NCBI GenBank assembly: GCA_944383835.1
Contig: CALWRE010000176.1
Coordinates: forward strand, 1-43,113
Direction of reading: 5' to 3'
From: an uncultured Lachnospiraceae bacterium
Lineage (GTDB): Bacteria > Bacillota > Clostridia > Lachnospirales > Lachnospiraceae
DNA length: 43,113 bases
Part shown: in pieces, positions 22,555 to 34,254 of the stretch
Layout of the letters: each line of letters starts with the position of its first letter
How positions within the stretch are numbered: position 1 is the stretch's first letter
Translations under genes and position numbers: made by a program
The notes under the pieces: generated by a model
Told to the model about the DNA's origin: nothing
Databases searched by the model: none
Seen by the model: the letters and a program-made list of their open reading frames with translations, nothing else

Positions 22555-23310
22555 TCACCCCACCCAGGTGTCCATCAGGATCATCACGATAACGCCGACG
22601 AGCAGGGAATAGGTGGCCAGCCTCTCATTCCCATTGCTGTGGGTTTCCGGAATCATTTCATCGCTGATCACGTAGAGCATCGTTCCGCCGGCAAAGGCCA
22701 GGGCGAAGGGGAGGACGGCGCCGGATACGCCGGCGGCGAAATAGCCGATGAAGGTGCCGACCACCTCTACCAGGCCGGTCAGGGAGGCGATGAGGAAGGT
22801 ACGCCCCTTGCTGACCCCGCTTAAAAGCATCGGGGAGATGATGATCATTCCTTCGGGAATGTTCTGCAGGGCAATGCCCAGGGCGACGGTCAGGGCCCCG
22901 CCGGGATCCTCCCCGCCGAAGCTGACGCCGGCGGCCAGGCCCTCGGGCAGGTTATGGATGGCGATGGCCAGCACGAAGAGAAGCACCTTGTCCAGGGAGG
23001 CGTTATGCTCGTGGGACTCGATGTCCACCCCGGTCAGATGGTGCAGGTGGGGCGTCAGCCGATCCGCCGCGTTCAAAAAGAGAGCGCCGCAGAGGATGCC
23101 CGCCGCGGTCATCCAGATGCCGGATTTCCCGGCCGTCTCCATCGAGGGCAGGATCAGGCCCAAAATAGCGGCCGCCAGCATGACGCCGGCGGCGAAGCCC
23201 AGGATGGCGTCGGCCATCCGCCTGGATACATTTTTAAAGAGAAAGCCAATCAGGGCTCCGGCGACGGTAGCGCCGCCGATGCCCAGGGCAGTTAGAATGA
23301 CAATTTCCAT
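22555..23310 (-). CDS. ZIP-family divalent metal transporter
   Basis: A 251-residue protein with eight predicted helices. The paired metal-site motifs are HNLPEGLAAG (helix 4) and QNIPEGMII (helix 5). As in the GufA/ZupT branch, the second motif starts with Gln-Asn rather than His, which affects the second metal site. It probably imports Zn2+, Fe2+ or Mn2+ into the cytoplasm. A short cytoplasmic loop with HLHHLTG and ESHEH supplies the histidine-rich segment typical of ZIP proteins. It has its own terminator. Confidence 0.9.
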   Translation of the reverse strand: MEIVILTALGIGGATVAGALIGFLFKNVSRRMADAILGFAAGVMLAAAILGLILPSMETAGKSGIWMTAAGILCGALFLNAADRLTPHLHHLTGVDIESHEHNASLDKVLLFVLAIAIHNLPEGLAAGVSFGGEDPGGALTVALGIALQNIPEGMIIISPMLLSGVSKGRTFLIASLTGLVEVVGTFIGYFAAGVSGAVLPFALAFAGGTMLYVISDEMIPETHSNGNERLATYSLLVGVIVMILMDTWVG

Positions 23311-23323
23311 AAGAGCTCCTTTT

Positions 23324-23887
23324 TCACATCGTTAAATTAAGTTTACCCAAATCAAGCCGCAAATCCCCAAAGATATTCACCGTTATCTGATCCGCAAAGG
23401 TATAGAGGGCGGGGCCTTCATCGTGCTCCATATCGTAGACGATGACAGCATGCCTTGCCGGATCCACAATCCAATATTCCCGCACGCCTGCCGCCCGGTA
23501 AAGGGCCAGCTTCGTGTAATAATCCTGCCGTTTGCTGCCGGGAGAGACAATCTCGATAATCCAATCGGGTGCGCCGTGGCAGCCTTTTTCATCAATTTTT
23601 TCAGGATCACAGATAATGCTCAGATCCGGTTCCAGATAATTTTCTCCGCAGCCAGGGGCATCGGACTGCAGGAAGACGGCGAAAGGCGCGGGAAAGACCT
23701 CGCAGGGACCGCCCTGCCGGTCAATATGATCGGCAATCGCCCGGCTCAGGGCAAAGGAAATCCGCTGATGCAGGGTGCTGGGCGGGGCCATATAATAAAT
23801 CTGGCCGTCGATCAGCTCGGCCCGCGTCCCCTCGGGTAAATTGTAAATATCTTCGATGGTATAGATGCGTTTCTCCGGCAGGGGCAT
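23324..23887 (-). CDS. Uma2-family (DUF820) restriction-endonuclease-fold protein
   Basis: A 187-residue protein of the PD-(D/E)XK superfamily. The order ELIDGQIYYMAPPS, EPDLSIICDP, APDWIIEIVSPGSKRQDYYTKLALYRAAGVREYWIVDP is the full Uma2 pattern, with the acidic D and ExV residues and the lysine of the nuclease core. Family members are abundant in cyanobacteria and some Clostridia, and their biological role is unclear. ATG 23887 is preferred over 23905 because AAAGGATG lies nine bases before it. It stands 13 bases from the ZIP gene start on the same strand, so both may be on one transcript. Confidence 0.85.
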   Translation of the reverse strand: MPLPEKRIYTIEDIYNLPEGTRAELIDGQIYYMAPPSTLHQRISFALSRAIADHIDRQGGPCEVFPAPFAVFLQSDAPGCGENYLEPDLSIICDPEKIDEKGCHGAPDWIIEIVSPGSKRQDYYTKLALYRAAGVREYWIVDPARHAVIVYDMEHDEGPALYTFADQITVNIFGDLRLDLGKLNLTM

Positions 23888-23994
23888 ATGTTTACATCCT
23901 TTCATTGCGCCGATTTTTAAACGAATTACTGTAATTATACATAAAAAAGATTAATTTTACATTCTGCAGTTCTAATATAGTCTATCATAGCACA

Positions 23995-24074: not shown

Positions 24075-24103
24075 TTGATCTCATGATCTGCAGCTGATAT
24101 AGT
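24075..24103 (+). promoter_or_regulatory. Promoter of the PRD regulator / PTS-ARH operon
   Basis: TTGATC (24075-24080), 17 bases, TATAGT (24098-24103). A palindrome GGAATATTCC lies upstream near 24033 and may be an operator. Confidence 0.6.
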
Positions 24104-24126: not shown

Positions 24127-26040
24127 ATGAACAAAAAACGATGGCTGGCTATCCTGAAACGTCTGCATCCCACGGAAACAGTAACAAGCGAACAACTGGG
24201 GCGGGAACTCTCGCTCAGCAGCCGGACGGTGCGGAGTGAATGCAGAGAATTAAAGAACGTTCTGGAAAAAGAAGGTGCACATTTGATTTCCAGAACCAAC
24301 GCAGGTTATCTGCTGCAGGTCGAGGACGAAGAAAAGTACCGGCGTTTTCTGCGGTCACTGGAAGAAAGCGATGCGATCCCCGAGACGAGCGAGGAGAGAG
24401 TACAGTATCTTCTGGAGATCCTGTTAGCCAACAACGAAGAATATGTAAAATTGGAAGACTTATGCGACCAACTCTACATATCCAGATCGAGCCTGACGGT
24501 CTGCTTGAAGGAGGTTCGCGAACTTCTGGAGGCATATAACCTGAAACTGATTATGCGCCCGAGCTATGGCATCCGGGTGGAGGGAAGAGAGTTTGACCTG
24601 CGTCTCTGCCTGGCCGCTTACACCATAGACCGGAAGAATCCGGGGGATGAAGAGAAAAGGAAATCTCTGGAGACCATCGCTCGCTGTATCCGGGAGGGAC
24701 TGCAGGGTTCAGGCCTGCGTATCAGCGAGGTATCGTTTCAAAACCTGATTGTCCATATTTATATTGCACTGAAACGGCTGGGAGATAAAGCCCATGTCCC
24801 GCTGCGGGAGGAACAGCTGCGTCAGATTGAAAAGGAAGCGGAATTCCCTTATGCGGAAAAAATCGCCGCTTATCTGGAAAAAACCTTTGATGTAAAGATA
24901 CCTCGGACAGAGGTTGGCTATATTGCGATCCATCTGGCAAGCAAGCGGATTTTTGAGAATGCCGGCGCTTCGGAGAATCTGGTGATCGACGATGAGATTT
25001 ACGATATTGTGACCCATATGCTGGATGCAATTCAGGAAGGCTACAATATGGATTTTCACGACGACCTGGAGCTGCGGATGTTCCTGGCGGCCCACCTGGT
25101 ACCCTTTTCCGTCCGTATGCAGTATGACATGAACCTGAAAAACCCGATGCTGGGGGAGATCAAAAGCCATTATACCATGGCCTATCTGATGGCGACGACT
25201 GCCTGCAAGGTCCTGGAAGAACATTACCACAAGCATATACAGGAAGATGAAATCGGCTATTTTGCCCTTCCCATCAGCCTGGCTATGGAAAGACGGCGTA
25301 CAGAGATTGCAAAAAAGAACATTGTGGTGGTCTGTTCCACAGGGCGGGGCAGCGCACAGCTTTTACTCTATCAGATCCAGAGCCGGTTTGGGCGGTATCT
25401 GGATCGGGTGGAAACCTGCGACGTGCTGGAACTGCAGAATTTTGATCTTTCGGATATCGACTATATCGTCACCACGGTTCCGATACCGTTTTCGGTTAAT
25501 CGGCCGATTCTGCACATACGGGCTTTTCTGGAGAACACAGATGTGGATGCCCTTCAGTCGCTGTTAAGCGGCCGGGAGAGATCGTCTCTGGAAAAGTATT
25601 TTCACCCAGACCTGTTTATGGCGGGGGTGGAGGCAAACACGAAGAAGGAGGCCATCGAAGCGATAGTAGCGCAGATCGCCAGGGTAAAACCCATTCCGGA
25701 AGATTTTCTGGAGGCGGTCTTTGAAAGGGAACAGTTGGCGGTGACGGCTTTTGGCAACCGTGTGGCAATTCCTCATCCAAACCGTCCGCTGACAGACGAA
25801 AGCTTTGTCTGCGTCGCGGTTTTAAAAAATCCGATTCTTTGGGGCAAGCAGAAAGTACAGCTGGTCTTTATGCTGTCGCTGAAGAAAAACGGCGAGGATA
25901 TGCAGTATTTTTCATCGGTGACGTCGAAATTGCTTTTCAGCAGGGAATATGTAGGAGAATTGATTCGGCATCCTTCTTATTCCACGTTGATGGGCTTGCT
26001 GGAGAAAATCGAAAAAGAGGGAGAGAAAAGGAATGGATGA
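24127..26040 (+). CDS. PRD-containing BglG/LicR-type transcriptional regulator
   Basis: A 637-residue PTS-controlled activator. N-terminal HTH domains (about 1-60 and 90-150) are followed by PRD1 (His210, His269) and PRD2 (His323). An EIIB-like domain has Cys403 in VVCSTGRGSAQ, and an EIIA-like domain has His550 in VAIPHPN. The second PRD2 histidine is replaced by Pro382 in EIGYFALPIS, which changes how phosphorylation by HPr or EII proteins can act. Being DNA-binding rather than RNA-binding at the N-terminus, it should activate a promoter, most likely that of its own operon. Its stop overlaps the EIIA start by eight bases. A paralogue lies at 40878. Confidence 0.92.
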   Translation: MNKKRWLAILKRLHPTETVTSEQLGRELSLSSRTVRSECRELKNVLEKEGAHLISRTNAGYLLQVEDEEKYRRFLRSLEESDAIPETSEERVQYLLEILLANNEEYVKLEDLCDQLYISRSSLTVCLKEVRELLEAYNLKLIMRPSYGIRVEGREFDLRLCLAAYTIDRKNPGDEEKRKSLETIARCIREGLQGSGLRISEVSFQNLIVHIYIALKRLGDKAHVPLREEQLRQIEKEAEFPYAEKIAAYLEKTFDVKIPRTEVGYIAIHLASKRIFENAGASENLVIDDEIYDIVTHMLDAIQEGYNMDFHDDLELRMFLAAHLVPFSVRMQYDMNLKNPMLGEIKSHYTMAYLMATTACKVLEEHYHKHIQEDEIGYFALPISLAMERRRTEIAKKNIVVVCSTGRGSAQLLLYQIQSRFGRYLDRVETCDVLELQNFDLSDIDYIVTTVPIPFSVNRPILHIRAFLENTDVDALQSLLSGRERSSLEKYFHPDLFMAGVEANTKKEAIEAIVAQIARVKPIPEDFLEAVFEREQLAVTAFGNRVAIPHPNRPLTDESFVCVAVLKNPILWGKQKVQLVFMLSLKKNGEDMQYFSSVTSKLLFSREYVGELIRHPSYSTLMGLLEKIEKEGEKRNG

Positions 26041-26362
26041 AGCATATGAGATTGCGTTTGAGCTGATCCTGAGCGCGGGCAATTCCAAGTCCAATTCCAT
26101 GATGGCAATTCGGGCCGCAAGGGAATTTGATTTTGAGCAGGCGCAGGAGCTGTTAAGCAAGGCGGACGATGAATTTACCGCTGCCCATGAGATCCAGAAT
26201 AAGCTTATCCAGGCGGAGGCCAGAGGCGAGGGCAAAGAGGTAAATCTGATTATGGTTCACGCCCAGGATCATCTGAGTATGGCGCTGGAGACGCGCGACA
26301 ACGCCGGGGAGTTTTTAAATTTATACAAAATGATTTATGAATTGCAAAAGAAAAGCAAATAG
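26033..26362 (+). CDS. PTS lactose/cellobiose-family EIIA component
   Basis: A 109-residue all-helical phosphocarrier of the LacF/CelC type. The phosphorylated histidine is His76 in MVHAQDHLSMA, and the trimer-forming helices AIRAAREFDFEQAQELL and HEIQNKLIQAEARGEG are intact. It takes phosphate from HPr and passes it to the EIIB encoded four genes later. The ATG lies inside the end of the regulator gene, giving coupled translation. Confidence 0.95.
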   Translation: MDEAYEIAFELILSAGNSKSNSMMAIRAAREFDFEQAQELLSKADDEFTAAHEIQNKLIQAEARGEGKEVNLIMVHAQDHLSMALETRDNAGEFLNLYKMIYELQKKSK

Positions 26363-26373
26363 GAGGGAAAGTA

Positions 26374-27681
26374 ATGGAAAAGTTTATGAATGCAATGCAA
26401 AAAGTATTGATGCCAATTGCTAATAAGCTGAACGCTAACCGCTACATATTGGCCTTGCGCGACGGCTTTGTTTTGTCTCTGCCTTACACCATGGCAGGCT
26501 CCATCCTGACGGCCTTCCTGAGCGTACCGTTTTTGGCGGATATATTCGGGGAGGAGACAATGGCTGCGGTGCAGAGCTTCATGGCTCCGGCCAATCAGTT
26601 TTCCAATAGTATTATCTCGATATTTGTGGTAGTTGGTATCGCTTACAGCTTGGCAAAGCGTTATGAGCTGGACGCCCTTCATGGAGCGGCGGTGTCATTG
26701 GTAGGTTTCTTAATTACCTGCCCTACCGTCATCACAGCGGACGGAGGCGTGAGCCTGAGCAATGTGATCGATATGGGATATGTTGGGGCCAGAGCCATAT
26801 TTACGGCTATTATTATGGCGATTCTCTGCGTGGAGGTGTATCGCTGGGGAATTAAACACAAACTGGGAATTAAACTGCCTGCCGGGGTACCGCAGTCCAT
26901 CCAGAATTCCTTTAATGCATTTTTGCCTGCCGGCTTGACCATAATCGTCGCTTTGATCATCCGTCAGCTATTTTTGCTTACACCCCAGGGAAATCTCACG
27001 GATTTTGTATTCTACTGGGTACAGAGACCGCTTACCGGCCTAGTACTGAATTATCCCAGCATGCTGCTGCAAGGCGTACTGAATAACCTGTTCTGGTTCT
27101 TCGGCCTGCATGGCCAGACCATGACCAACAGTGTTTTCAGGCCGTTTATGCAGGCTGCAGCTACCGAAAATCTGGAGGCTTTGGCAGCTGGTTTGCCGCT
27201 GCCCAACATCTTTTCTTCGACTTTCCAGAATATATGGGTATTCTTTGGATTCTGGATTTCCGTTCCGCTGCTGATCGCTCTGTGGTTCTACCGTAAAAAG
27301 AGAAAAGACTGGGCGGGCGTGATGAAGATTGCTCTGATTCCGGGACTGTTCAATATCTATGAGCCGTTAATGTTCGGATTTCCGCTGGTGCTCAATCCCT
27401 ATATGTTCATCCCGATGATGCTGACGCCTCTTATTTCCGTTACAGTCGGTTACCTGTGTACGATTATTGGCATTTGCGGAATCCCTACGGGCGTATCGCT
27501 CCCGATTGTGACCCCTGTATTTATTTCCGGCGTACTGGGAACCAACACCCTGATGGCTGGCGTTATTCAGCTGCTGCTGATGATTCCGCTGGCTGCCATG
27601 TGGTATTTCTTCCTGTCGATTCAAGACAGGGCAGAGAGGCAGAGCGGTCTCTATGTGGAGGAGGAAAATGAGCAGAAATAA
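26374..27681 (+). CDS. PTS lactose/cellobiose-family EIIC permease
   Basis: A 435-residue membrane permease that binds and translocates the sugar. About ten hydrophobic segments are visible, with the family stretches FVLSLPYTMAGSIL, FWFFGLHGQTM and IYEPLMFGFPLVLNPYMFIP, the last close to the substrate site of the ChbC group. It follows EIIA by 11 bases behind AGGAGGGAAAGT. Lac-family EIIC proteins carry beta-glucosides, chitobiose, lactose and related disaccharides. The true cargo here is open because no 6-phospho-glycosidase accompanies it. Confidence 0.95.
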   Translation: MEKFMNAMQKVLMPIANKLNANRYILALRDGFVLSLPYTMAGSILTAFLSVPFLADIFGEETMAAVQSFMAPANQFSNSIISIFVVVGIAYSLAKRYELDALHGAAVSLVGFLITCPTVITADGGVSLSNVIDMGYVGARAIFTAIIMAILCVEVYRWGIKHKLGIKLPAGVPQSIQNSFNAFLPAGLTIIVALIIRQLFLLTPQGNLTDFVFYWVQRPLTGLVLNYPSMLLQGVLNNLFWFFGLHGQTMTNSVFRPFMQAAATENLEALAAGLPLPNIFSSTFQNIWVFFGFWISVPLLIALWFYRKKRKDWAGVMKIALIPGLFNIYEPLMFGFPLVLNPYMFIPMMLTPLISVTVGYLCTIIGICGIPTGVSLPIVTPVFISGVLGTNTLMAGVIQLLLMIPLAAMWYFFLSIQDRAERQSGLYVEEENEQK

Positions 27682-28711
27682 AATGTGCCGAGATAAGGTG
27701 CTGGGCGCTCTGTACGGGGCAGCCTATGGGGATTCGCTGGGAGCGGTGACCGAATTCTGCACGCGAAAGGAAATCGTGCAGGCGTTTCCCGCAGGATGTC
27801 GGGATTACGCGGCGTCGATCAGTCGGATTACCCGCGGGATTATGCCGGGGACAGTGACAGACGATTTCGGATCCAGCTGCTATTTCATGCGGGCCATCCT
27901 GCGGCACGGAGGCCGGTTTGACCGGGATATCGCTGTGGAGGCGGTACTCGACTGGTCGCAGGACGAGATTGTCTTTGCAAAATATGCGGGCCAGAATACG
28001 AAGGCGGCGATGGAACGGGTTAAACAGGGCATTATCATTGACGAAAACAGCAGACAGCAGCATTTCAGCCGTCAGAATACCAATGGAGGCGCCATGAAGG
28101 CGTCTCCGGCGGGGCTTCTGGCCTGTGGGGATCCGAAATTGGCGATTCAATATGCGTTGGATTTGTGCTGGCCCACCCATTATAACAGCGCTGCGGCTTC
28201 GGGGGCCTGCGCAATCGCCTGTGCCGTCTGCGAGGCGCAGCGGGAAGATGCCGCGCTGGATTCCATTTTTGAAAAAGCCATTGAAGGCGCGGAGCTCTCC
28301 CGCAGGCAGCTGGAGGCAGAGGGCGTGGAGGCTTTTGGGCCTTATGTCAGCAGAAGAATAGAGATGGCTGTTGAACTGGGGAGAAAGGCGCAGGGCTCAG
28401 AAATTTATGACTTGCTCAATGGCGTTATTGGAACAGGAATTTCCGTCCAGGAATCTGTCCCGGCAGTGTTTGCCATTATTGCGGCGAATAAAGGAGAATT
28501 CCTGTCGTCCGTCTGGTGTGCGGTCAATGCCGGCGGGGATACGGATACCATCGCGTCCATGACGGGAGCGATACTGGGCGGATATTGCGGGATCGATGCG
28601 GTTCCCCAGGCAGCCATTACAAGAATTAACGAGGCCAATCATTTCCTTGCGTTGCGCGAGACGGTGACGGAATATGCGGATCTAATTGAAAAGGAGTGTG
28701 ATAAAATATGA
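27668..28711 (+). CDS. ADP-ribosylglycohydrolase (ARH/DraG) family enzyme within a PTS operon
   Basis: A 347-residue all-helical hydrolase of the ARH family (COG1397, PF03747). The first metal site is GDSLGAVTEF and T64-D65-D66 in GTVTDDFGSS; the second is D291-T-D293-T294 in NAGGDTDTIAS. Both match the two-Mg/Mn centre of DraG and ARH3, so it should be active. The usual residue after TDD is Thr, here Phe67. ATG 27668 follows GGAGGAGGAAA and overlaps the EIIC stop by 14 bases; an earlier in-frame ATG at 27653 has no better site. It sits between EIIC and EIIB, overlapping the latter by four bases, in the place of a phospho-glycosidase. It may cleave the imported phosphorylated glycoside or a riboside, or remove ADP-ribose from a protein. 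Confidence 0.88.
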   Translation: MSRNKMCRDKVLGALYGAAYGDSLGAVTEFCTRKEIVQAFPAGCRDYAASISRITRGIMPGTVTDDFGSSCYFMRAILRHGGRFDRDIAVEAVLDWSQDEIVFAKYAGQNTKAAMERVKQGIIIDENSRQQHFSRQNTNGGAMKASPAGLLACGDPKLAIQYALDLCWPTHYNSAAASGACAIACAVCEAQREDAALDSIFEKAIEGAELSRRQLEAEGVEAFGPYVSRRIEMAVELGRKAQGSEIYDLLNGVIGTGISVQESVPAVFAIIAANKGEFLSSVWCAVNAGGDTDTIASMTGAILGGYCGIDAVPQAAITRINEANHFLALRETVTEYADLIEKECDKI

Positions 28712-29016
28712 GGATCATGTTGGCATGTGCTCTGGGTATGTCCACCGGAATGCTGGTGGAGCGGATGCGTGAGGCGTCGAAAAAGGCAGGCAGAGAGGAT
28801 GAAATCTGGGCGGTGGATGTAGGCTCTGTGGATAAAAACGCGGGGAAATTTGATGTTTTGCTTTTGGGGCCTCAGGTCACCTATATGCTGGCGGATATGC
28901 AGAAAAAATATGGCTCTCAGGTGCCGGTGGCTCTCATCAAGCCGGTGGATTACGGTCGGCTGAATGGGGAAGCGGTGCTAAAGCTTGCGGATACCCTGGT
29001 AAAGGAAAAAAAGTAA
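28708..29016 (+). CDS. PTS lactose/cellobiose-family EIIB component
   Basis: A 102-residue EIIB protein. It begins MRIMLACALGMSTGMLV, with the phosphorylated Cys7 in the P-loop-like motif CxxGMSTG. LLLGPQVTYMLADMQKKYG is the usual second half. It moves phosphate from EIIA to the incoming sugar bound by EIIC. Placing EIIB last, after an unrelated enzyme gene, is less common than the EIIB-EIIC-EIIA orders. A strong terminator follows at 29057. Confidence 0.95.
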   Translation: MRIMLACALGMSTGMLVERMREASKKAGREDEIWAVDVGSVDKNAGKFDVLLLGPQVTYMLADMQKKYGSQVPVALIKPVDYGRLNGEAVLKLADTLVKEKK

Positions 29017-29056: not shown

Positions 29057-29095
29057 ATTGCCAAACGAGCGCTGCGAAGGTTCGTTTGGCAATTT
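29057..29095 (+). terminator. Terminator of the PTS-ARH operon
   Basis: A perfect 12-bp stem joins 29057-29068 (ATTGCCAAACGA) and 29082-29093, with a 13-base loop, and is followed by TT. Confidence 0.8.
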
Positions 29096-30411: not shown

Positions 30412-31410
30412 ATGTGGTCTGGTATTGTTGCGGTCTGGGACAGGGACCGGAAGTATGCCGCCAGGCTGAGCGGATATCTGCGCGGGCGGGGCAGCTGTCC
30501 TTCCCAGGTGGTTTGCTTTGAGGAAGAGGAGCGGCTTCGGTCGGCGGTGGAAAGGGGGCAGGTGGCCGTGGCCCTGGCGGGAAGGCCTGTGGCCGACAGC
30601 GAATGGCTGAAGCCTGCGGCTGTCTTGACCCTGACGGAGGGGAGGGAGGCCAGGGCCGGCACAGTCTGTAAGTATCAGCCGGCGAGGCAGATCGCCCGCT
30701 CTCTGATGGAGCTGGGCCTGTGGAAGGAGCCGGGCCGACCGACTGCCCTTCGCGCAGCCAGGGTTCGGGGAATCTATTCTCCGCTGGGAGGCTGTCTTAA
30801 GACCTCCTTGGGGCTGGTGATGGGGAGCCTGTTGGCGGAGGAGAGAAGCAGTCTTTTTATCAGCCTGGAGGCCCATTCCGGCTTTCGCACCCTCTTTGAG
30901 AGGCAGTATCCCGTGGACTTATCGGATCTCTTCGCCCTGATGCGAAGGGACGGAGATCTGGCCGACGGGCTGCCGGGGGCTCTGCAGTCTTTTGGCAGGC
31001 TGAAATATATTCCGCCGGTGATCTGGCCCGAGGATATCCGGGAGGCGGAACTCATGGAGCTAAAAAAGCTTCTGACGGCCCTGACCCATCTGGGGCAGTT
31101 TGAGGAGGTGGTGATCGATGTGGGTCTGGATCTGGCCCGGCCGGAGGAGGTGCTCTCCTGGTGCGACCGTATCTACCGGCCGGAGAAGGACGACGCTTTC
31201 TCCCTGGCGAAGTCCGCCGAGTACGACGCCTATCTGCGGGACAGCGGGAGAGAGGAGCTTCTGGGCCGGATGAAGCGGATCGAGCTGGGGTGCCTCTGCG
31301 CTGAGGCCTATAACGGAAGGCTGACCCAGTGGCAGAGGTGGGAGCAGATGATTCCCCTGGTGCGCCGGCTCCTGGACGGAGAGGAGGGGGAGGATGCGGG
31401 GGACGATTGA
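30412..31410 (+). CDS. TadZ/CpaE-like pilus localisation protein with degenerate ATPase motif
   Basis: A 332-residue protein leading the Tad operon. Residues 1-110 resemble a degenerate receiver-like domain. The rest resembles a MinD/ParA-type ATPase, beginning GIYSPLGGCLKTSLGL (about 125-140). The usual deviant Walker A is GGxGKTT; here it reads GGCLKTS, with the second glycine lost, so ATP binding may be weak. TadZ proteins position the pilus machine in the cell. The ATG follows GGAAAGGAGGCAGT, and the end overlaps cpaF by 17 bases. The assignment relies mostly on position and the P-loop context. Confidence 0.7.
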   Translation: MWSGIVAVWDRDRKYAARLSGYLRGRGSCPSQVVCFEEEERLRSAVERGQVAVALAGRPVADSEWLKPAAVLTLTEGREARAGTVCKYQPARQIARSLMELGLWKEPGRPTALRAARVRGIYSPLGGCLKTSLGLVMGSLLAEERSSLFISLEAHSGFRTLFERQYPVDLSDLFALMRRDGDLADGLPGALQSFGRLKYIPPVIWPEDIREAELMELKKLLTALTHLGQFEEVVIDVGLDLARPEEVLSWCDRIYRPEKDDAFSLAKSAEYDAYLRDSGREELLGRMKRIELGCLCAEAYNGRLTQWQRWEQMIPLVRRLLDGEEGEDAGDD

Positions 31411-32620
31411 GGAACTCTGCCGCAGGGAGATACTGGAGAGGGCCGCCAGAGCCGAGGAGTTGAGCGACGGCAGCCTCTACCAGGTGATCGACGAGGTGAT
31501 GGGGGAGATGGCGAAGGAGCATTATCTGCCCCTTTCGGAGCGGACCTCCATGCGCCGCCGCCTTTTTGATTCCTTCCGGCGGCTGGACATCCTGCAGGAG
31601 CTTTTGGAGGACGATTCCATCACGGAGATTATGGTCAATGGACACAGGAATATCTTCGTGGAAAGGGATGGGAAGGTTTTTCGCTGGGACAGTTGTTTTG
31701 AGAACCGGCAGAAGCTGGAGGATGTGATCCAGCAGATCGTAGCCAGGGTAAACCGGGTGGTGAACGAGTCCTCCCCGATTGTGGACGCCAGGCTCCCCGA
31801 CGGATCCCGTGTCAACGTGGTGCTGCCGCCGATATCCCTGGACGGCCCGGCGCTGACGATCCGAAAATTTTCCCGAAAACCGATCACGATGGATCAGCTG
31901 ATCCGCTGTGGCTCCATCGGGGAGGAGCCGGCGGCCCTTCTGCGGCTTTTGGTAAAGGCCCACTACAACATATTCATATCCGGGGGAACCGGTTCAGGCA
32001 AGACTACATTTCTTAATGCGCTTTCGCAGTATATTCCCAATCAGGAACGTGTGATTACCATAGAGGACTCGGCGGAGCTGCAGCTTTTGGAGCAGCCGGA
32101 TTTAATTCGTCTGGAGACCAGGAGCGGCGTGGGCGAGGGCATTTCCATCCGTCAGCTAATCCGCTGCAGCCTGCGGATGAATCCGGACCGGATTATTGTG
32201 GGCGAGGTGAGAGGGGAGGAGGCCCTGGACATGCTCCAGGCCATGAATACCGGCCATGACGGTTCCCTGAGCACCGGCCATGCCAACAGCCCGTCGGATA
32301 TGCTGATGCGTTTGGCGACGATGGTACTGATGGGGGCGGAGATTCCCCTGGCCGCCATCAACAGCCAGATCGGCTCGGCCATTGATATCCTGGTGCATCT
32401 GGGAAAGCTCCGGGATGGGAGCAGGAAGGTTTTATCTATAATGGAGGTGGACAATGATGGAATGGGAGGAATACGGCTTTCCCCGCTCTATGAGTTTGAA
32501 GAGACGGGGACCGACGAGGACGGCAGGGTCTGCGGACGCTGGAAAAAGCAGGCGCAGGGCCCGGCCGACACCCGAAAGCTCATCCTGGCAGGATGCAAAG
32601 ATCTGCTACAGGGAATATAA
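31394..32620 (+). CDS. CpaF/TadA pilus assembly ATPase
   Basis: A 408-residue type II/IV secretion ATPase that powers Flp pilus assembly. The N-terminal domain has [19 protein letters not shown], then [21 protein letters not shown]. Walker [10 protein letters not shown] spans 197-205, the Asp box is [10 protein letters not shown], Walker B is [18 protein letters not shown], and the His box is [13 protein letters not shown]. All are canonical. It works with the TadB and TadC membrane platform encoded next. Its last 167 bases overlap the open frame of tadB. Confidence 0.95.
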
Positions 32621-33341
32621 GCTGTCCTGGAAGGAATGGCTGCTCTACGGGGCGGCAGGGGAGGCTCTTGCGGTGCTGATCGATTTTATTTTTTACCGCA
32701 GCCTGGTCTTTTTGCTTTTGCTTTCGCCCCTGGCGGTGATTTTCCCCTGGGCGATGCGGGGGAGGCTGGCAAAGAAGCGGAGGGACAGGCTGGGCGTGCA
32801 GTTTAGGGACGCTGTTTTGGCCTTATCTTCGGCCCTGCAGGCGGGATATTCGGTGGAGAACGCCTGGAGGGAGGCCTATGAGGAGATGGCCTGCGTCTAC
32901 GGGGAGGAGGGGATGATCACCCGGGAATTTGCCCGGATGGTGCGGGCCATCGAGGTCAATGAGACGCCGGAATCGGTGATCAGCGAGTTCGCCGCCCGCT
33001 CGGGGCTCCCTGAGGCGGAGAGCTTTGCCGAGGTTTTCTGCCTGGCCAAGAGAAGCAGCGGGGATCTGGTGACGGACATGGACAATACGGCGCGGACCAT
33101 CAGCGAAAAGCTGCGGGTGCGGGAGGAGATTGCGACGCTGACGGCGGCCAAGCAGCTGGAGGAAACGGTGATGACCTTTATCCCGGCGGGAATCATCCTC
33201 TATCTCAATTTTTCCTTCGATGGGTTTATGGATGTGCTCTATCAGGGGCTGGCGGGGAGGGCGGTCATGACGGTCTGCCTGCTCATCTATGGGGCGGCGG
33301 TTCTTTTGGGGTTTTATATGGTGCGGGAAGAGAGGTGGTAA
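32454..33341 (+). CDS. TadB-like inner platform protein (T2SF domain)
   Basis: A 295-residue membrane protein. Helices near 70-105 are followed by a cytoplasmic T2SF domain ([28 protein letters not shown] through [27 protein letters not shown]) and two C-terminal helices. ATG 32454 follows GGAGGTGGACA, but that sequence is also cpaF coding. From there the first 55 or so codons overlap cpaF in another frame and read as Arg/Ser-rich residues unlike other TadB proteins. The homologous part starts at about [11 protein letters not shown], and no ATG, GTG or TTG exists there; 32490 is the nearest alternative start. Confidence 0.85.
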
Positions 33342-33344
33342 AGG

Positions 33345-33899
33345 ATGGATAAGGCGGCGGTGTTGGTTCTTCTGGCGGCCCTTGTCTTCTACTGGCTGAA
33401 GGTGGAGAGGCCAAAGGAAGAAGGGAAAAAGAAGAGAAAACAGATGGAGGCGGATTATCCGGAGCTCATCGCCAAGCTGACGGTGTTAATTGGGGCGGGG
33501 CTTTCCCTGCCCCAGGCCTGGATGCGGCTTTCGGAGGACTACCAGAGAAAGCGGGAGAAGGGAAAGGAACGCTGGGCCTTTGAGGAAATCTGCGTCACGG
33601 CCAGGCAGATGCAAAACGGGATGTCCGCCGGCAAGGCCTTCGGGGCCTTTGGCAGAAGAATAGGGCTTCATTCCTATATTAAGCTGGGCAATATCCTGGA
33701 GCAGAGCATGAAAAAGGGGACGCGGGGTCTCTATGAAATGCTGGAAGAGGAGGCCGGCCGGGCTTTTGAGGAGAGAAAGCATCAGGTGAGAAGGGCCGGG
33801 GAGGAGGTCAGCACCCGGCTGCTCATCCCGATGTTCATGATGTTCGGTGTTGTGCTGGCTGTGATTATGGTTCCGGCCCTGCTGTCCTTTTCCTTCTGA
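33345..33899 (+). CDS. TadC-like platform protein (T2SF domain)
   Basis: A 184-residue partner of TadB. One N-terminal helix (residues 5-20) is followed by a T2SF domain with LIAKLTVLIGAGLSLPQAWMRL and AGEEVSTRLLIPMFMMFGVVLAVIMVPAL at the end. It is shorter than Gram-negative TadC (about 300 residues) because it has a reduced N-terminal membrane part, which is normal in Clostridia. The start lies three bases after the tadB stop. Confidence 0.88.
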   Translation: MDKAAVLVLLAALVFYWLKVERPKEEGKKKRKQMEADYPELIAKLTVLIGAGLSLPQAWMRLSEDYQRKREKGKERWAFEEICVTARQMQNGMSAGKAFGAFGRRIGLHSYIKLGNILEQSMKKGTRGLYEMLEEEAGRAFEERKHQVRRAGEEVSTRLLIPMFMMFGVVLAVIMVPALLSFSF

Positions 33900-33945
33900 T
33901 AGGCGAGGGAAACCGGGGAAAAACGAAAGAGAAAGGGGGATAACC

Positions 33946-34254
33946 ATGCGGAAATTATGGAGAATGGTGGATAAAACAGGGAGGGAAAAAGCGATGATAG
34001 ATAAACAAACGATGCCTCCGGCGGCGATGGATGGATCAACGGCGGACAAGCGCCAGGGAAACGAGGCGGCGGGAGGGAGCCTGTGGCTGCGGATGAAGGC
34101 TGTGGGGAAGGACTGCTCCGGGGCGGGGGTCATCGAGCTTTTGCTGATTATCGTGGTGCTTATCGCCATTGTAATCCTGTTCCGGGATCAGCTGATGGAT
34201 CTGGCGGATCTGATTTTCGGCGAGATGTTTGATAAAGCGGAAAGCGTGTTCTGA
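33946..34254 (+). CDS. Flp1-like type IVb pilin precursor with long leader
   Basis: A 102-residue prepilin. The processing site CSG|AGVIELLLIIV lies after Gly59, with Glu at +5 of the mature protein and a hydrophobic helix after it. The mature pilin is only 43 residues and ends FDKAESVF. Most Flp1-like precursors have leaders of 10-25 residues; here it is 59, Lys/Arg-rich then Ala/Gly-rich. The ATG at 33946 has a GAAAGGGGGATAACC ribosome site; a start at Met50 would give a normal leader but has no ribosome site. The stop overlaps the next start by one base. Confidence 0.85.
   Translation: MRKLWRMVDKTGREKAMIDKQTMPPAAMDGSTADKRQGNEAAGGSLWLRMKAVGKDCSGAGVIELLLIIVVLIAIVILFRDQLMDLADLIFGEMFDKAESVF

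Follow-up and report, generated by a model that had tools for sequence, protein, structure and literature searches.

An ARH-family enzyme inherited with a lactose-family PTS transporter: a candidate phospho-glycoside hydrolase

In ordinary operons of the lactose/cellobiose (Lac) family of the phosphotransferase system (PTS), a 6-phospho-glycosidase cleaves the imported sugar. The window studied here, 43,113 nucleotides of contig C176 of an uncultured Lachnospiraceae bacterium, holds a Lac-family operon of a different composition. Five tightly packed genes on the forward strand encode, in order, a regulator, the enzyme II (EII) components EIIA and EIIC, an enzyme of the ADP-ribosylglycohydrolase (ARH) family (PF03747), and EIIB (Table 1). 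The question raised by this locus is what an ARH does in a sugar transport operon.

The window ARH is probably a small-molecule phospho-glycoside hydrolase, in a PTS-coupled operon for a phospho-riboside or riboside-like compound. EIIA, EIIB, and EIIC would import a small glycoside and phosphorylate a primary hydroxyl. The ARH would then split this phosphorylated compound by hydrolysis, giving an aglycone and a sugar phosphate, probably ribose 5-phosphate; elsewhere the 6-phospho-glycosidase performs this step. The PTS would fill the role of the PfkB kinase found in most ABC-, MFS-, and NCS1-linked ARH operons, and control of the operon by its PRD/EIIA regulator probably works through PTS phosphorylation. 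Import with phosphorylation followed by ARH cleavage had been proposed in an earlier note on this DNA. It holds as the best-supported reading through the co-inheritance of EIIC and ARH and the absence of the usual kinase, with further backing from nucleoside-linked neighbors in relatives and from the glycosidases near most other Lac EIICs of the genome; its biochemical part stays a prediction.

All three PTS components belong to the Lac family (PF02255, PF02302, TIGR00410). EIIA has a candidate phosphorylation site at His76 (VHAQDH), and Cys7 of EIIB is presumably the corresponding site. EIIC does not reach the equivalog cut-offs of TIGR00394 (151 vs 614 bits) or TIGR00359 (313 vs 434 bits, lactose/cellobiose transporter), so neither lactose nor cellobiose is assigned as its substrate. 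Profile searches placed none of the genome’s matches to GH1 or GH4 on contig C176, in agreement with the earlier claim that no 6-phospho-glycosidase is present at the locus. No PfkB kinase is encoded in the operon, and the PfkB matches of the genome are on other contigs.

The genes overlap or nearly touch, as the earlier note had stated. The regulator and EIIA genes share 8 bases, EIIA and EIIC are separated by 11 bases, and the ARH overlaps EIIC by 14 bases and EIIB by 4. The ARH start is taken as 27668 (347 amino acids), whereas the mechanical list of open reading frames has 27653. A purine-rich stretch lies upstream of every start among the five genes. The single terminator claimed after EIIB is upheld in part: a strong hairpin is present there, but its U-tract is poor, and a consensus terminator scan gave 5 matches against 5.2 in shuffled sequence, or no excess.

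Conservation of the locus was assessed by a scan using one genome per species, in which 404 stretches matched and 288 encoded a relative; the best 80 were kept. Among these best 80 of 288 were Vagococcus allomyrinae and three Enterococcus species; together with the window and a genome of the same genus (G004, locus L038), they bring to six the Lac-family EIICs that adjoin an ARH. G004 has all five genes in the window’s order, with an ARH 43% and an EIIC 42% identical to those of the window, so the arrangement is more than chance. In Vagococcus allomyrinae and the three Enterococcus species the EIIC-ARH pair alone is kept, preceded by a GntR gene that points the other way. These Enterococcaceae loci have no EIIA or EIIB next to the pair, except for an EIIB across the GntR gene in Vagococcus. 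At L073, a second Lac-PTS gene set lies downstream of the pair. In Vagococcus (L062, 3306-7692), a lone Lac-family EIIB ends an ABC importer gene set that adjoins the pair.

A tree of 37 Lac EIICs places the six ARH-linked copies in one clade (support 100/99; recovered in all 200 bootstrap trees). A quick tree of 101 ARHs likewise places the six Lac-linked ARHs in one clade, with a support of 100 in the SH-like approximate likelihood ratio test (SH-aLRT). This support is 99 when the window is left out and 99 when L038 is left out. Both trees give the same split, with the window and L038 on one side and the four Enterococcaceae on the other. Since each partner forms one clade and the two trees split alike, the pair is inherited together. 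Outside the clade, 28 of the 31 EIICs have no ARH in the fetched stretch of about 3-4 kb, and the remaining three (the second copy of L073, L174, and L175) each have an ARH some 3-4 kb away that is paired with a different importer. By score, the next EIIC relative beyond the clade is in G026, and it lacks an adjoining ARH. The ARH had been described as built into the transport unit; a check for its loss from orthologous operons found it adjoining all six EIICs of the clade. Judged from these trees and gene orders, the conserved unit is the transporter together with the enzyme, not the whole operon.

A wider search with a profile of the clade ARHs (E ≤ 1e-50) matched 9 of 397 genomes of the family and 2 of 398 of the class. 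Only the window and G422 score like the clade, and no further Lac-linked ARH was gained. A search with an Enterococcus ARH (E ≤ 1e-30) matched 14 of 395 genomes, of which G422, G424, and G420 are already known members. The genomes searched are even draws from larger groups, and the known members G004 (in the clade-profile search) and G423 (in the Enterococcus ARH search) are missing from the matches, so members can be missed. In these draws the EIIC-ARH pair is rare.

The PTS phosphorylates its cargo on import, and a PfkB kinase phosphorylates after import. Import operons with ARHs of the same group use ABC (ribose type, BMP type, or CUT1), MFS, NCS1, or PTS importers, and the PTS importers come from three families: Lac, mannose (Man), and glucose/beta-glucoside (Glc). 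Man-PTS with ARH was found at five loci (the window’s genus, Merdimonas, Erysipelotrichaceae, one more bacterium, and a Klebsiella plasmid). Glc-family PTS with ARH was found at ten loci within the order that includes Enterococcus and at one from the window’s order (L047), and public annotation adds Listeria and Enterococcus raffinosus. In a labeled set of 111 loci with an ARH call, 24 are PTS-linked, 55 have another importer, and 32 have no recognized importer. A PfkB or FGGY kinase is present in the same gene run in none of the 24 PTS-linked loci, in 46 of the 55 with another importer, and in 21 of the 32 with none recognized. The difference between the first two classes (Fisher p 3e-13) holds only if the loci are independent, and they are related. 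As no kinase is found where a PTS is present, the PTS seems to take the place of the kinase. If the two do interchange next to one and the same enzyme, a phosphorylated compound is most likely what that enzyme acts on. An excerpt of PMC3161100 describes aminoimidazole riboside kinase activity for STM4066, the kinase of a Salmonella ARH operon, which suggests that a riboside is phosphorylated before cleavage.

Several choices define these counts. An earlier version gave a kinase in 1 of 21 PTS-linked loci and 41 of 50 with another importer. L174 was moved from the PTS to the non-PTS class, as its Lac PTS lies in a separate set with a GH1-like protein upstream of the GntR gene of the ARH. Five duplicate loci were removed, closely related species were retained, and 14 plasmid records were picked by hand. 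Neighbor labels come from our own seeded profiles, with Pfam or NCBIfam confirmation for part of them only. Eleven loci with no ARH call over threshold are uncounted: L179-L182, fetched for their adenosine deaminase genes; L043 and L044, distant ARHs of the window’s genome; L077, L097, L121, and L128, in which the ARH is masked by a longer reading frame on the opposite strand; and L260, with an ABC importer and PfkB by annotation. The nine non-PTS loci lacking a kinase are six CUT1 loci plus L101, L116, and L119. The stretches of L101 and L116 stop less than 4 kb past the ARH start, and in L119 a PfkB-labeled gene lies 5.4 kb away.

The window’s genome also provides an internal control. It contains nine Lac EIICs at E ≤ 1e-40, or eight besides that of the window. 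For six of these eight (contigs C11, C42, C55, C135, C142, and C179) a GH1 lies within about 3 kb on the same contig, and for two (C1 and C238) none is nearby. The window’s EIIC has an ARH where a GH1 usually sits nearby.

By residues and predicted fold, the enzyme itself belongs to the ARH superfamily. The translation contains E29, T64-D65-D66, N139-G140, M143, H171, D291, T292, D293, and T294. The metal residues (T64, D65, D66, D291, D293, and T294) are intact, as had been claimed, and the Glu flap (E29) is present. The predicted fold is the all-helical ARH fold; a fold search returned ARH relatives at the top of the list, a result that gives no information on substrate. The solved structures of DraG, ARH3, and MJ1187 share the predicted fold, the TDD and DxD metal motifs, the Glu flap, and THxN with the window ARH; identity to the ARH structures listed by the fold search is 18-24%. 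The window ARH differs from these three in having TDDF instead of TDDT and NGGAMK instead of NG(A/G)AMR, and the Asp specific to DraG is not at the aligned position.

In ADP-ribosyl substrates, the ribose carries its phosphate on C5. Known ARHs require the cis 2'',3''-hydroxyls of ribose, and ARH1 and ARH3 select the alpha-1'' link, according to an excerpt of a review (PMC7050489). Taken together, ribose cis-hydroxyl binding, alpha-1'' selection, and the C5 phosphate lead us to infer that a 5-phosphoribosyl glycoside is a natural substrate. Action as a 6-phospho-beta-glucosidase on hexosides was also considered and is thought unlikely, since glucose lacks the cis 2,3-hydroxyls that the same excerpt gives as required by ARHs (PMC7050489). 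ADP-glucose has been reported as a ligand of YegW, the regulator of yegTUV, in an excerpt of PMC10819704; no glycogen genes were noticed among the operon genes read, and no search was aimed at them.

Gene neighbors in relatives point to nucleoside-like compounds, as far as annotation can tell, but to no single compound, and none of these neighbors lies in the window’s own operon. An adenosine deaminase directly follows the ARH in two Enterococcus species (L064 and L072; TIGR01430, 307 and 303 bits against a cut-off of 217). The two are 65% alike, and the second adenosine deaminase of each genome is 36-40% like them. Alternatively, this enzyme could deaminate adenine, as other members of the family do. 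Beyond the Lac clade, the nearest ARH (L071, SH-aLRT 94) has as neighbors two IU_nuc_hydro proteins, a PNP_UDP_1 protein, PfkB, a BMP importer, and another ARH. PsuG-type proteins (PF04227) lie within seven genes of an ARH in 12 loci, two of which (L061 and L087) are from one genome. Genes for a metallophosphoesterase (annotated UshA in Yersinia), a phytase-like protein, and a KdgM porin are near the ARH set of Yersinia frederiksenii and Vibrio europaeus.

Other gene sets around ARHs were observed. On a Lactiplantibacillus plantarum plasmid (L257, 2863-9235), NUDIX, nicotinate phosphoribosyltransferase, and isochorismatase-family genes lie just upstream of an ARH, a cytosine permease (NCS1), and PfkB, a context that resembles NAD salvage. 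ARH, PsuG-type glycosidase, and MtaA/CmuA-type methyltransferase genes occur together at L106 (4346-10657), L079, and L099, and L106 also has a gene that is RamA-like by reading. L115 (7834-13150) has five tandem ARH genes between a BMP importer and PfkB, with an IF-2B-family protein and a BtpA-like gene upstream. The ARH-like clade of L080, L098, and L103 lacks some or all of the motifs searched, and its proteins are perhaps inactive. On contig C110 of the window’s genome (L044, 2-2600), a macrodomain-like protein, a vWA-like protein, and a different ARH stand in a row (names by reading); this ARH is perhaps of the conventional ADP-ribosylation type, in contrast to that of the window.

A more specific substrate, a disaccharide nucleoside, is rather unlikely. 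It would be, for example, ribosyl-(1''->2')-adenosine, which is the core of poly(ADP-ribose) stripped of its phosphates, or a related NAD-derived ribosyl-adenosine product. The PTS would then phosphorylate C5 of the outer ribose, and the ARH would free ribose 5-phosphate and adenosine. The enzyme would keep an ancestral preference for alpha-linked, 5-phosphorylated ribose, and the deaminase in Enterococcus would take the adenosine. Were this so, the ARHs of metabolic operons would be a salvage arm for nutrients derived from ADP-ribose.

The relation of the locus to known systems was examined. The Listeria monocytogenes locus L254 is, we assume, bvrABC, with bvrC as the ARH; the bvr naming and the description of bvrC as an ARH are reportedly by Brehm et al. 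in 1999. Like the window, L254 has a PRD regulator, a PTS enzyme II, and an ARH in a tight operon, with no phospho-glycosidase between them and no kinase. Its enzyme II is a IIBCA fusion of the Glc/beta-glucoside family, whereas the window has separate A, B, and C proteins of the Lac family. Loci with BglG, IIBCA, and ARH fall on another branch of the ARH tree than the window; L254 itself is absent from the tree. Salmonella STM4065-4067 and Escherichia coli yegTUV are small operons that likewise combine an importer with a same-family ARH, but with an MFS importer, a PfkB-type or putative sugar kinase, and a GntR regulator where the window has a PTS and no kinase. Lac-PTS operons with a GH1 6-phospho-beta-glucosidase share the Lac-family components and often a PRD/EIIA regulator; the window’s operon has neither GH1 nor GH4. 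Four operons (L040, L089, L100, and L109) join a PTS with tandem ARHs and no kinase, but the PTS is of the mannose family, a TrpA-like protein is present in all four and an Fe-ADH in three, and their ARHs are on another branch. No description of a PTS operon with an ARH was found among the open-access papers searched (in one search, the best 15 of 128), judged by titles and opening abstracts. A precedent probably exists in Listeria bvrABC. As far as the literature was searched, the Lac-family form, the co-inheritance, the spread over three PTS families, and the exchange of kinase and PTS are new.

Several points weigh against a phospho-riboside hydrolase. A kinship-corrected tree test with five changes in PTS linkage was not significant (median p 0.125, range 0.125-0.5), and fewer than six independent pairs cannot reach p 0.05. 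Over 200 pairings of five independent pairs, an average of 3.8 had kinase absence with the PTS, none were opposed, and 1.2 were tied; the test used 73 rows, before the plasmid loci joined the set. In six CUT1-linked ARH operons the gene run contains no PTS and no PfkB, so a phosphorylated substrate may not be needed by every ARH of the group. One of these (L074) has a PfkB 4.8 kb upstream, and in another (L063) the SIS protein carries a HAD-like part at its front (by reading). The adenosine deaminase is beside the ARH in only two of the six Lac-linked loci; those of Vagococcus and the third Enterococcus (L181 and L182) are elsewhere and are 45-47% like the L064 and L072 enzymes. No recognized nucleoside genes lie beside the operon in the window or L038. 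The window ARH sits on a long branch, and where the five other Lac-linked ARHs have GPTT it has GQNT. To our knowledge, the Lac-family PTS substrates known so far are hexosides. The genome also has many GH1 matches, which could act in trans, and five GH4 matches.

These glycosidases, and the two Lac EIICs that have no GH1 nearby, would suit an arrangement in which the ARH cuts an unrelated substrate, shares the operon for co-regulation, and leaves the PTS product to a GH1 or GH4 elsewhere. This is unlikely, as EIIC and ARH are co-inherited in both the window’s genus and Enterococcaceae despite different regulators and different placement of EIIA and EIIB. It is distinctly unlikely that the PTS and ARH are mainly a sensor, in which the ARH binds or slowly cleaves the import and sets the regulator while catabolism takes place elsewhere. 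Such a role would agree with an excerpt of PMC7744463, which terms Listeria bvr a beta-glucoside sensory operon and gives no gene functions, and this also counts against a phospho-riboside hydrolase. It would agree as well with two GntR-UTRA regulators fused to an ARH domain (L085, 5723-7504; L104, 7875-9671), in which TDD has become TEA and DTDT is lost. These stand upstream of an ARH, PfkB, and an ABC importer (Pfam on L085). However, the metal residues and Glu flap of the window ARH are intact, the window’s regulator carries its own PRD and EIIA domains, and a sensor would not need the substitution of kinase by PTS.

The same fusions bear on the other possibility raised in the earlier note, that the ARH strips ADP-ribose from a PTS protein. 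The target might also be another protein, and the removal would serve to regulate the transporter. Known members (DraG, ARH1, and ARH3) do remove ADP-ribose from proteins, and the fold and residues of the window ARH match theirs. The window ARH nevertheless misses the equivalog cut-offs of DraG (TIGR02662, 63.2 vs 337 bits) and of the Tri1 ADP-ribosylarginine hydrolase (NF041672, 29.8 vs 490 bits), and the same ARH group occurs beside unrelated importers, then mostly with a sugar kinase. No ADP-ribosyltransferase was recognized among the operon genes read, for which no profile of that family was run. The loss of metal residues in an ARH domain fused to a regulator suggests a small-molecule ligand, and the L085 and L104 fusions are likely pseudoenzyme sensors of one. 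Protein de-ADP-ribosylation is accordingly disfavored and very unlikely.

Table 1. Features of the operon and its flanks (window coordinates).
Feature	Position	Strand	Basis
Weak promoter-like site upstream of regulator	24075..24103	+	Consensus match only; total not above shuffles
BglG/LicR-type regulator	24127..26040	+	HTH_11 PF08279, Mga PF05043, PRD PF00874 (2 stretches), C-terminal EIIA-2 PF00359
PTS EIIA, lactose/cellobiose family	26033..26362	+	PF02255, E 1.3e-31
PTS EIIC, lactose/cellobiose family	26374..27681	+	PF02378; TIGR00410 lacE subfamily, 313 bits vs cut-off 236
ARH-family enzyme (PF03747), 347 aa	27668..28711	+	PF03747, 177 bits vs gathering score 26.2
PTS EIIB, lactose/cellobiose family	28708..29016	+	PF02302
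Hairpin 3' of EIIB, possible terminator without clean U-tract	29057..29093	+	-25.6 kcal/mol, fold z -3.8

Two other regions of the window were noted. Positions 30412-34254 encode a CpaF/TadA-like secretion ATPase with neighbors and look, by reading, like a Tad pilus cluster. Positions 23324-23905 encode a Uma2-family protein (PF05685) next to a ZIP transporter gene (22555-23310).

Proteins of COG1397/PF03747 are routinely labeled ADP-ribosylglycohydrolases. In the labeled set, ARHs of the same group occur with a PTS, or with another importer and a kinase, never with both. Judged by this pattern, hydrolysis of small-molecule phospho-ribosides may be the function of many bacterial ARHs in operons of this kind. 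If true, PTS metabolism would gain a further type of glycosidase, and the roles of bvrC and yegU might be explained.

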